In this document: piece after piece, positions 18,141 through 21,116 of the stretch
How positions within the stretch are numbered: the stretch's first letter is position 1
How the letters are laid out: each line of letters opens with the position of its first letter
Origin: Ectothiorhodospiraceae bacterium
GTDB lineage: Bacteria > Pseudomonadota > Gammaproteobacteria > Nitrococcales > Aquisalimonadaceae
Assembly (NCBI GenBank): GCA_007134055.1
Contig: SLLM01000376.1
Span: 1-34,668, forward strand
Reading direction: 5' to 3'
DNA length: 34,668 nucleotides
The notes under the pieces: model-generated
Databases searched by the model: none
Told to the model about the DNA's origin: nothing
What the model saw: the letters and a program-made list of their open reading frames with translations, nothing else
Position numbers and translations under genes: made by a program

Positions 18141-18353
18141 TCATGCCCACTCGTCGATACGACCGCGCTCCGGGGAGGATGCCTCGTCACGGCGGCGACC
18201 CGGCTTCCGCCGCAGGGCCTCGTCCATCCCGGCGGAACGCTCCCTGGGGTTGAGGCCATGCCGGGCGTAGGGAACGGTGGGATGCACGGCCGCGGTCTCC
18301 ACGACCGGCCGGAACACCTCGCGATCCGGGGAATTGATGCGGATGTCGATCAC
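18141..18353 (-). CDS. Small Arg/Glu-rich protein of unknown function (70 aa)
   Basis: A 70-aa frame from a GTG at 18353 (VIDIRINSPDREVFRPVVET) to a TGA at 18141, with GGGAG about seven to nine bases upstream. I do not recognise it. The N-terminal half looks folded, with alternating hydrophobic residues. The C-terminal half (about residues 35-70) is highly charged (RERSAGMDEALRRKPGRRRD) and likely disordered. Third codon positions are nearly all G or C, like the neighbours, which supports translation. It converges on coaD (28-bp gap) and is divergent from mlaC. Chance openness in GC-rich DNA remains possible. Confidence 0.5.
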   Translation of the reverse strand: MIDIRINSPDREVFRPVVETAAVHPTVPYARHGLNPRERSAGMDEALRRKPGRRRDEASSPERGRIDEWA

Positions 18354-18507
18354 GGCACGCACTCCCGACGTCCTCTCAGGGTATGATTGCGTCCGGATTC
18401 CGGAATTGCAACCGGCCGCAATGGTGAATATCGTCCGGAGCGGAGCACTCTTGAATCGATGCGCGTGCCATACCCGGGTACGCGGCAATGCACGGAAGGT
18501 CTGCGCC

Positions 18508-19173
18508 ATGAAGAATATCTCGCCCCTGTTCGGATCAATGGTCCTTGTCCTGGCCCTGCTTGCCAATCCGGTCCAGGCCGGCAACGCCGGAGAACTGGAG
18601 CCGCCCCGGGAGATGATCGAAAGCGTCTTCGAGGAGGCGTTGAACGCCCTCGTGGAGAACCAGGATGCCATCCGCGAGCGCCCCCGCGTGGCCTTCGAAC
18701 TGATCGATGAGATCCTCTCCCCGCACGTGCACTACCCGCTGATGGGGCAGCTGATCCTGACGCGGGAATGGCGGGAGGCGTCGGAGGAACAGCGACGGGA
18801 ATTCCTGCAGACATTCCGCGAGTACATCATCCGCACCTACTCCAAGCTGCTCTCCGACAACGTCGACGAGGTGGTCCGGATGGTGGAACGGTCAGGCACC
18901 CTGATGGTGGTGCGCTCCGTGACGGAGCCGGATCAGCGCGGCCGTGTCACCGTGCGGACCCAGTTCCAGCTGGAAGACTCGCCGGTGCCGGTCCTCTATC
19001 GCCTCATTGCAACGGACAACGGCTGGCGCGTCTGGGACGTTGTCATCGAAAACATCAGCTTCGTCACCAATTACCGCGACGAATTCGAGAGCGAAATCCG
19101 CCGAGGTGGACTCGACGGCCTGATCCAGCGACTCCGGGAACGCAATGCCCGTGCCTGGGGCGAGCAGGACTGA
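18508..19173 (+). CDS. mlaC: MlaC/Ttg2D family periplasmic phospholipid-binding protein
   Basis: A 221-aa exported protein with a signal peptide ending at PVQA (about residue 24). The mature part matches the MlaC/toluene-tolerance Ttg2 family: FELIDEILSPHVHYPLMGQLIL, REFLQTFREYIIRTYSKLL, VRTQFQLEDSPVPVLYRL, WRVWDVVIENISFVTNYRDEFESEI and a final GLDGLIQRLRERN. MlaC proteins ferry phospholipids between outer-membrane MlaA and the inner-membrane MlaFEDB transporter. Here no mlaFED gene is adjacent, so it is an orphan copy; the related hopanoid protein HpnM is an alternative name. The ATG at 18508 follows GGAAGG. The stop is two bases before the next lipoprotein gene, suggesting coupling. Confidence 0.9.
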   Translation: MKNISPLFGSMVLVLALLANPVQAGNAGELEPPREMIESVFEEALNALVENQDAIRERPRVAFELIDEILSPHVHYPLMGQLILTREWREASEEQRREFLQTFREYIIRTYSKLLSDNVDEVVRMVERSGTLMVVRSVTEPDQRGRVTVRTQFQLEDSPVPVLYRLIATDNGWRVWDVVIENISFVTNYRDEFESEIRRGGLDGLIQRLRERNARAWGEQD

Positions 19174-19175
19174 AC

Positions 19176-19811
19176 GTGCCCGCCCGCCCGCTGCAATTGG
19201 CACTGCTCTGCGGGCTCGCCCTGATCATGCTCAGCGGCTGCGCCAACCGTCCTCCGGAGCGGACGGACAACCTGTGCGAGATATTCGACCACCAGCCCCG
19301 CTGGTACGACTATGCCCGGGAATCGAAGGAGCGCTGGGGTACACCGATCCCCATCCAGATGGCCTTCATCAACCAGGAGTCGACCTTCCGCCATGACGCC
19401 CGCCCGCCCAGGACACGACTCCTGGGATTCATCCCATGGCGGCGCCCGTCGACGGCCTATGGATATGCCCAGGCCCAGAATCCGGTATGGAGCGAATACA
19501 TGGAAGACGAGGGCAGCCTGTTCGCGCGACGCACGCACATGAAGCACGCACTGGATTTCGTCGGCTGGTATAACCATCGCACCCACGAGCGCCTCGGAAT
19601 CTCGAAGCACAATGCAGAACATCTGTACTACGCCTACCATGAGGGGCACACTGGATACCGGCGCGGCAACCACCGGAACAAGCCGGTTGTTCTGCGGGCT
19701 GCGCAACGGGTAGAGCGGCACGCGCGTAACTACCGGGAGCAACTCGCCGGATGCGAGGCGCGGTTCCAGTGCCGGCGGTTCTGGCAGATCGGCCCGTTCT
19801 GTGATGCCTGA
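19176..19811 (+). CDS. Lytic transglycosylase-like (SLT) lipoprotein
   Basis: A 211-aa lipoprotein from a GTG at 19176 with an AGGA ribosome site; its signal peptide ends in the lipobox LSGC (Cys about residue 22). The mature protein contains MAFINQESTFRHDARPP, whose Glu is the likely catalytic acid of the lysozyme-like SLT fold. It also has STAYGYAQAQ and a C-terminal AYHEGHTGYRRG, the pattern of transglycosylase-domain proteins that cleave peptidoglycan. Four cysteines lie near the C-terminus or the start of the mature chain (CEIF, CEARFQCRRF, FCDA) and might form disulfides. It directly follows mlaC with a two-base gap, so the two are probably one transcript. Confidence 0.85.
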   Translation: MPARPLQLALLCGLALIMLSGCANRPPERTDNLCEIFDHQPRWYDYARESKERWGTPIPIQMAFINQESTFRHDARPPRTRLLGFIPWRRPSTAYGYAQAQNPVWSEYMEDEGSLFARRTHMKHALDFVGWYNHRTHERLGISKHNAEHLYYAYHEGHTGYRRGNHRNKPVVLRAAQRVERHARNYREQLAGCEARFQCRRFWQIGPFCDA

Positions 19812-19824
19812 ACCATGACAAGCC

Positions 19825-19852
19825 AAAAAAAACCCCCGGCTAGCGCCGGGGG
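19825..19852 (-). terminator. Intrinsic terminator on the minus strand
   Basis: Read on the minus strand, the stem GCCCCCGGC.../...GCCGGGGG core (8 bp, CCCCCGGC with GCCGGGGG, 4-nt loop, 19833-19852) is followed at once by eight T residues (19832-19825). This is a strong intrinsic terminator for minus-strand transcripts only; on the plus strand the tract precedes the stem. The nearest minus-strand gene ends 490 bp away, so it probably ends a separate short transcript. Confidence 0.85.
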
Positions 19853-19986
19853 CAAGACTTACGCGCCAGGGTGGGCAGACGCGTTTGCTAGAGAGTGCCG
19901 GCCGGCAGACCGGGGGGGATGGCCCGCCGGAGACAGCTCTCGTGGCCCTTGTGGCCCAGGCCGGAAGCCGGCCCGCCAAAGGGCTG
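19825..19986 (-). ncRNA. Putative sigma-54-dependent small RNA (about 160 nt)
   Basis: Bounded by a sigma-54-like promoter (19997-20012) and a strong minus-strand terminator, this interval has no convincing open frame. It is rich in self-complementary segments, such as GGCCGG-CTT-CCGGCC and the palindrome TGCCGGCCGGCA. The transcript would start near 19986 and end in the U tract. It does not resemble 6S, tmRNA, 4.5S or RNase P RNA by eye, and lacks the A-rich Hfq-titrating repeats of CrcZ. Existence is inferred from promoter plus terminator; function is unknown. Confidence 0.5.
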
Positions 19987-19996
19987 GAAAATTGTT

Positions 19997-20012
19997 TGCA
20001 TGGACCGTGCCA
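19997..20012 (-). promoter_or_regulatory. Sigma-54 (RpoN) type promoter
   Basis: On the minus strand TGGCACGGTCCATGCA matches the RpoN consensus TGGCACG-N4-TTGCA at 11 of 12 specified positions, with exact GG-N10-GC spacing of the -24 and -12 elements. It points toward the terminator at 19825 and lies just downstream of a cluster of repeated boxes suitable for an enhancer-binding protein. Confidence 0.55.
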
Positions 20013-20016
20013 TGCT

Positions 20017-20115
20017 GTTCCAACCCTGTTATGTATGCAGTCTATGACAACCGTTCCAGAAATGGAACACCCTGTTTGTTCCCCTTTGACGACAGACCCC
20101 GTCCGAAATGGAATA
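20017..20115. promoter_or_regulatory. Cluster of GTTCC/GGAAC boxes, possible enhancer-binding sites
   Basis: GTTCCA at 20017-20022, a perfect palindrome GTTCCA-GAAA-TGGAAC at 20053-20068, GTTCC at 20078-20082 and a second copy of GAAATGGAA at 20105-20113 (46 bp from the first) occur within 100 bp. They lie immediately upstream of the sigma-54-like promoter, where activator sites of RpoN-dependent genes are expected. The cognate regulator is unknown. Confidence 0.4.
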
Positions 20116-20339: not shown

Positions 20340-21116
20340 CTATCGGACAAGATCGGGACGTGTGTCCCGCTGCAGTACCTGAAGGTGGTGCAGGTAACGC
20401 TGGATGCGCATCGACCCACGCCGGGAGAGCTGCAGGAACGCCATTCCCAGACGCCTTCCGACCCGGCCGTCATGCTGGATGTAACGGGAGATATTGCGCA
20501 CCTCCAGGGAGACCGAAAGGCTCTCCCCTTCCGGGATGTCAAGTATGGCGTCGCCGAAACGCCTCCCGGGCGCCAGTTGCAGCTTCATGGCGAGATCGAC
20601 AAGCCCGACACCACCCATGCTGAGATCCACGGCCCTGAACTCGTGAACGCCCTCCGCCTTCCGGGTGTCGGGAATCCTGCAGCACACGGCACTTGCCACC
20701 GGTGTCGGCACCCGGAAGTACTCCCGTCGCTGCAGGCGGTAGAGCGACTCGGGCAGGGTGGCAACAAGCGCTGGGGTACCACGATACTCCCCCTGCACCA
20801 CAGGCCCACAGGCGAACTTGATGCTCACGTCGTTGTGCTTGGCGATGCAGACCAGTCGATCCGCACGCACTGCCGCACGGTTGACGGCCGCATCCGGGCC
20901 CACATCCAGGAACAGGGTATTGCTCTCCACGTCCGCCGCCAGCACCGCGGTGATGACATGGCTGCGCCCGCTATTGAAGTAGCCCGTTATGATCTCCGGT
21001 CGCCGGGCCAGGCGGTTCAGCATGGCTGCCACCTCCACCGGGCGCCGCAACAGGAATCGCTCCTGTTCCTCGGCGCTGCCGGAAACCCCGTCGCTACTCC
21101 CCTCGTTCGTGATCAT
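20340..21116 (-). CDS. PilZ-domain protein, YcgR-like flagellar brake type
   Basis: A 258-aa cytoplasmic protein with a YcgR-like N-terminal domain (about residues 20-125) and a C-terminal PilZ domain. The cyclic-di-GMP-binding signature is complete: RLQRREYFRVPTP supplies the RxxxR-type motif and VDLSMGGVGL the DxSxxG motif. In the family, ligand binding lets the protein slow flagellar motors or modulate other targets. No flagellar genes are adjacent, so the target is open. The gene is monocistronic, with 156 bp to the next gene upstream and the non-coding region downstream. The ATG at 21116 has only a weak ribosome site. Confidence 0.85.
   Translation of the reverse strand: MITNEGSSDGVSGSAEEQERFLLRRPVEVAAMLNRLARRPEIITGYFNSGRSHVITAVLAADVESNTLFLDVGPDAAVNRAAVRADRLVCIAKHNDVSIKFACGPVVQGEYRGTPALVATLPESLYRLQRREYFRVPTPVASAVCCRIPDTRKAEGVHEFRAVDLSMGGVGLVDLAMKLQLAPGRRFGDAILDIPEGESLSVSLEVRNISRYIQHDGRVGRRLGMAFLQLSRRGSMRIQRYLHHLQVLQRDTRPDLVR

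Follow-up and report, generated by a model that had tools for sequence, protein, structure and literature searches.

CrcZ and NrsZ are sigma-54-dependent small RNAs, and the activators of small RNAs of the Qrr, CrcZ and NrsZ type are LuxO, CbrB and NtrC. In Enterobacteriaceae a small RNA is driven by GlrR (QseF). This RNA, GlmY (Rfam group GlmZ_SraJ), acts in E. coli as a decoy for RapZ, a protein whose RNA-binding domain is limited to Enterobacteriaceae and which also stimulates QseE/QseF in E. coli when GlcN6P runs short (PMC7073468). For QseF (GlrR) the consensus TGTCN10GACA has been published (PMC8745638), and the three sites of the E. coli glmY promoter have the consensus TGTN12ACA (PMC6075780). 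When read directly, the E. coli glmY promoter shows the sigma-54 box TTGGCACAGTTACTGCA along with sites at positions −111, −174 and −207.

We analysed a window of 34,668 nucleotides (the whole stretch of DNA under study), the minus strand of which appears to carry a small RNA gene of the salt-loving Aquisalimonadaceae. The gene looks previously uncatalogued, and no earlier description of this small RNA family was found among the open-licence papers searched. Judged from sequence, the best reading is a new family that is wired like glmY and has an unrelated RNA body. If this is true, a non-homologous RNA stands under the same promoter type in halophiles, and the wiring from sensor to small RNA would be of greater age than the RNA itself, or easier to re-invent. 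The family would be testable in cultivable species (Aquisalimonas lutea, Methylonatrum kenyense).

A sequence-only reading of the window had proposed a minus-strand RpoN-like promoter with an exact GG-N10-GC, followed about 160 nt later by a strong terminator with eight U. Indeed, the −24/−12 box ATGGCACGGTCCATGCA is present at 20013–19997, and the intrinsic terminator GCCCCCGGC-GCTA-GCCGGGGG with its eight U at 19853–19825. With the start set 12 nt past the −12 GC, the predicted RNA extends from 19986 to 19825 on the minus strand and has a length of about 162 nt. The minimum free energy of this 162-nt stretch is −92.2 kcal/mol, and the fold of 19990–19825 beats all 200 shuffles (z = −4.0). 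The interval is non-coding, as had been claimed: it holds no ATG and no ORF common to the loci, and a coding function was rejected on these grounds. It is flanked by genes for a YcgR-like flagellar brake protein with PilZN and PilZ domains (20340–21116, minus strand), the end of which lies 487 bp from the terminator (about 490 bp in the earlier count), and for an SLT_4 transglycosylase lipoprotein (19176–19811, plus strand), convergent to the RNA gene. MlaC is encoded further on (18277–19173, plus strand; coordinates of the listed ORF, the true start being further in).

According to the fold, the RNA begins with a 5′ hairpin (19984–19945), which is a species-variable domain, followed by a second hairpin (19941–19891) with the C-rich loop CAUCCCCCCCGGU and a GAGAG/CUCUC closing stem, both of which are kept in the related locus L002. 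The 3′ end is formed by a conserved 67-nt module (19890–19824, minus strand like both hairpins). It consists of a 7-bp hairpin, ACGCGUC-UGCCCACCCU-GGCGCGU (19884–19861, with the 10-nt loop at 19877–19868), a linker, the terminator and U8. The covariance model R1 of this module comprises 12 sequences and 14 pairs; all cells of its alignment are paired, and two pairs are compensated, both of them in the terminator. The identity of this conserved part, like the activator sites described below, goes beyond what had been noticed from the window.

In a DNA search of 40 relatives with the RNA region, the last ~65 nt recurred across Aquisalimonadaceae, and other families of the order gave weak matches only. 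R1 detected the module in 13 of 14 Aquisalimonadaceae genomes (72–88 bits); the genome without it, G012, is 86% complete. The module was not found in the other families sampled, a set of 369 genomes of the class among them, and those R1 matches outside the family (27–42 bits) that were inspected turned out to be other terminators, a tRNA end and a different C-rich RNA. Scanning the contigs of 84,980 species for the exact pattern yielded ten loci in Aquisalimonas, Methylonatrum kenyense or unclassified Ectothiorhodospiraceae bins, the hosts of which, to judge from their names, belong to the GTDB family Aquisalimonadaceae; two actinobacterial loci were taken as chance. The 10-nt loop is invariant in three genera (g1–g3), and its first base differs in a fourth (g4, CGCCCACCCU). 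Predicted RNA lengths range from 75 to 166 nt across the ten g1–g3 loci. In Aquisalimonas the 5′ part folds into a three-way junction, some pairs of which are compensated, and in the genus of the window into two hairpins; L003 and L004, with RNAs of 75–79 nt, have almost nothing of it. Since the 5′ part varies while the 3′ module is constant, the module can be regarded as the core of the RNA.

Another C-rich, RNA-like element, which is also conserved (GGTCTCCTCC..GGCG.. with a terminator), was observed in a different family of the order, and genera g3 and g4 possibly contain a relative of it (L036, L039, L041, L042, L044, L049, L050; L034, L051–L055, L057).

Rfam searches at gathering thresholds and at E ≤ 5 assigned no family, and the earlier statement that the RNA matches no housekeeping RNA thus holds. 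The best sub-threshold matches were anti-hemB (RF02837, 30 of 49.5 bits) and suhB/mmgR (RF00519, 24.1 of 41 bits). Both share a C-rich hairpin, a G+C-rich terminator and poly-U with the new RNA, but they score well under gathering and the likeness is mostly that of the terminator. With Qrr (PMC10162802), CrcZ and NrsZ the locus has in common a sigma-54 promoter with an enhancer-binding protein, a short non-coding RNA and an intrinsic terminator, whereas the activators are different, Rfam gave no match to such families, and no CrcZ-like CA motifs were seen in the RNA sequence. GlmY shares a sigma-54 box of equal quality, TGTC-N10-GACA sites (a pair about 66 bp apart in most relatives versus 63 bp in E. 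coli, with a third site there), a GlrR ortholog with an identical recognition helix, a similar RNA length (184 nt in E. coli) and a strong terminator. In contrast, the RNA sequence is unrelated to GlmY, with no GlmY/GlmZ covariance match even at E ≤ 5, and the new gene adjoins mlaC, SLT_4 and ycgR, while glmY sits upstream of glrK.

We consider it quite probable that the locus is a trans-acting small RNA gene under GlrK/GlrR and a sigma-54 promoter. The envelope-sensing two-component system GlrK/GlrR (QseE/QseF) would lead to phosphorylated GlrR, which would occupy the TGTC-N10-GACA sites and, by DNA looping, contact sigma-54 polymerase at the box. An RNA of ~162 nt would be started and would end at the terminator described above. 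Its active part would be the 3′ module, with the U8 terminator and the hairpin that exposes UGCCCACCCU; this module would be held by Hfq, and the C-rich loop would pair with G-rich stretches near the starts of target mRNAs, probably those of envelope genes. An hfq gene is present in 14 of 14 family genomes and the terminator has a long U tail, features of an Hfq-dependent small RNA. The target step found no support in our searches, as these revealed neither a recurrent exact loop complement nor consistent pairing with neighbouring genes. Perfect loop complements (AGGGTGGGCAGA) gave 12 matches besides the RNA gene itself and no orthologous target, and pairing with the starts of mlaC, SLT_4, ycgR and ybgC did not differ overall from that in shuffles. 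The row for MlaC in L096 is an artefact caused by contig truncation, and ybgC gave one low value, in L167, which was repeated nowhere else.

The lack of a recurrent complementary target would also fit a decoy, the repeated C-rich loops of which titrate an RNA-binding protein in the manner of GlmY and RapZ in E. coli. The loop is almost invariant, one RNA carries several C-rich loops, and the promoter is of the same GlrR type as that of the decoy GlmY. Nevertheless such a role is rather unlikely, because RapZ of the family (13 of 14 genomes) lacks the basic C-terminal RNA-binding tail and no GlmY/GlmZ similarity is detectable. In the genome of the window RapZ ends with ...RHRELS and is devoid of the EKRKP tail of E. 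coli RapZ, in agreement with the restriction of the RNA-binding domain to Enterobacteriaceae mentioned above; moreover, the minimal forms of 75–79 nt have a single C-rich loop. By analogy to E. coli, the occurrence of RapZ in these genomes makes a RapZ input to GlrK/GlrR possible.

For a trans-acting small RNA driven by sigma-54, the box within the window is weak evidence on its own, since about two equally good matches are expected by chance. The exact GG-N10-GC of the sequence-only reading is correct, and the box, given there as 11 of 12, reaches 11/13 when scored over 13 positions. Three boxes of this quality are present in the window against about two in shuffles, and the earlier expectation of 0.15 such matches was too optimistic. 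The weight of the box derives from conservation in relatives only. A box with 10–12 of 13 matches exists in all ten loci of genera g1–g3 (that of the window included), always 5′ of the loop motif at a distance of 50–141 nt and with per-locus shuffle P values of 0.001–0.024.

In genus g4 (L011–L013) the module is retained and the sigma-54 box is missing upstream of it. The GlrR sites were lost together with the box, and a sigma-70-like TGTGCTATACCT was gained in its place, an apparent promoter replacement. As this genus possesses the RNA and GlrR without the sigma-54 box, GlrR control is not universal; a genus with the sigma-54 promoter and one that lost it offer a natural contrast.

Upstream of the box, sites of the type TGTC-N10-GACA were called when at least seven of eight positions matched, with positions given relative to the −12 GC. 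Such sites are located at −75 to −88 (about −86) in nine of the ten g1–g3 loci and at −143 to −156 (about −152) in eight of them, compared to shuffle means of 0.06 and 0.05 (maxima 2 and 1). The spacing of the paired sites in most relatives is the ~66 bp compared with glmY above. In the window itself the −86 site deviates from the consensus at one position (TGTC-GTCAAAGGGG-AACA, 20094–20077, minus strand, 7/8 positions), and there is no −152 site. Possibly a palindrome, GTTCCATTTCTGGAAC, serves as second activator site in this genus, from which the −152 site is missing; the palindrome lies at 20053–20068 (no strand assigned) within CAGGGTGTTYCATTTYTGGAACGGTTGTC, which is also conserved in the sister species. 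The composite pattern of site and sigma-54 box matched one to three times per genome, one of these matches being the small RNA promoter. Matches to IHF sites were weak and confined to part of the loci.

Genes for GlrR, GlrK and Hfq were all found in Aquisalimonadaceae. The GlrR ortholog has 56–62% identity and is present in 13 of 14 family genomes, including that of the window (G000:C318), and the next paralogs reach about 45% or less over a comparable length. Its recognition helix, RNRTEFYKLL, is the same as in E. coli. In NCBIfam searches GlrR was the top match by more than 230 bits, with a score of 658 bits that is below the equivalog cut-off of 763 bits. The gene order glrK – lipoprotein – glrR is kept and is followed by ybgC-tolQR.

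An incidental sigma-54 box, with only the 3′ module being important and the RNA either transcribed by way of a sigma-70 promoter or processed out of the 3′ end of ycgR, is improbable. The sigma-70-like box of genus g4 and the chance expectation for a single 11/13 box are in favour of this explanation, but ten loci have the box upstream together with activator sites at fixed spacing, and no ycgR match was found near the module in G004, G006, G007 and G010. For the same reason we rejected a terminator that merely ends the PilZ transcript: ycgR is not a constant neighbour, and the adjoining gene changes in some genomes while the module stays. In G009 the end of an rpoH-like gene replaces SLT_4 on the other side. 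In most genomes the module and SLT_4 or mlaC are arranged tail-to-tail, but a mere convergent terminator or attenuator that shields the mlaC–SLT_4 end without regulatory RNA function is very improbable, as termination does not depend on a preceding hairpin and loop of 24 nt that hardly vary, the module persists in L003 beside a different gene, and it has an activator-type promoter of its own. Promoter and terminator are conserved in relatives (the box in ten g1–g3 loci, the module in 13 of 14 genomes), and a sigma-54-driven small RNA, as first suggested for the window, is the best-supported reading of the recurring box, 3′ module and terminator.

The link between the sites and GlrR is independently supported by dual-site loci near glrR in other gammaproteobacteria. 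The dual-site pattern is rare (29 genomes among the 369 drawn from the class). The class and order searches combined gave eight dual-site loci no more than 1.5 kb away from a glrR with 54–62% identity, seven of them in other gammaproteobacteria and one in G012.

In the latter genome, which lacks the module, glrR is immediately followed by two GlrR-type sites and a sigma-54 box with 12/13 matches, all of them ahead of ybgC (L167:3481-3860); the product of this promoter may be another RNA or a long leader of ybgC. Most family genomes carry TGTCTCC..GGAGACA-type site pairs between glrR and ybgC-tolQR (e.g. L157:3883-4100 and L158:5421-5600, with equivalents in L159, L160, L162–L164, L166 and L167), which are degraded or absent in three of the four g4 genomes. 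The arrangement suggests GlrR control of tol-pal. In other gammaproteobacteria (L181, L184, L187, L188, L190, L195, L196, L207), dual GlrR-type sites and a strong sigma-54 box were observed 5′ of genes for small secreted proteins, some of them EF-hand-like (Pfam EF-hand confirmed for L188), and several of these loci adjoin glrR or glrK.

A tentative view, to which we give slightly less than even weight, is that the GlrR dual-site/sigma-54 promoter is an ancient gammaproteobacterial envelope-stress output that acquired small, unrelated effectors. These would be GlmY in enterics, the RNA with the C-rich loop in Aquisalimonadaceae, and small secreted proteins, some of the EF-hand type, in other lineages. 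On this view the RNA of Aquisalimonadaceae would correspond to GlmY but be of independent origin and lack its RapZ mechanism.

Pairs of TGTCC-N8-GGACA with a distance of 63 bp, several of them followed by a sigma-54 box, were seen in L186, L198, L201–L204 and L206. They adjoin a different regulator (42–47% identity), another sigma-54 activator that is perhaps the one of the PEP-CTERM type.
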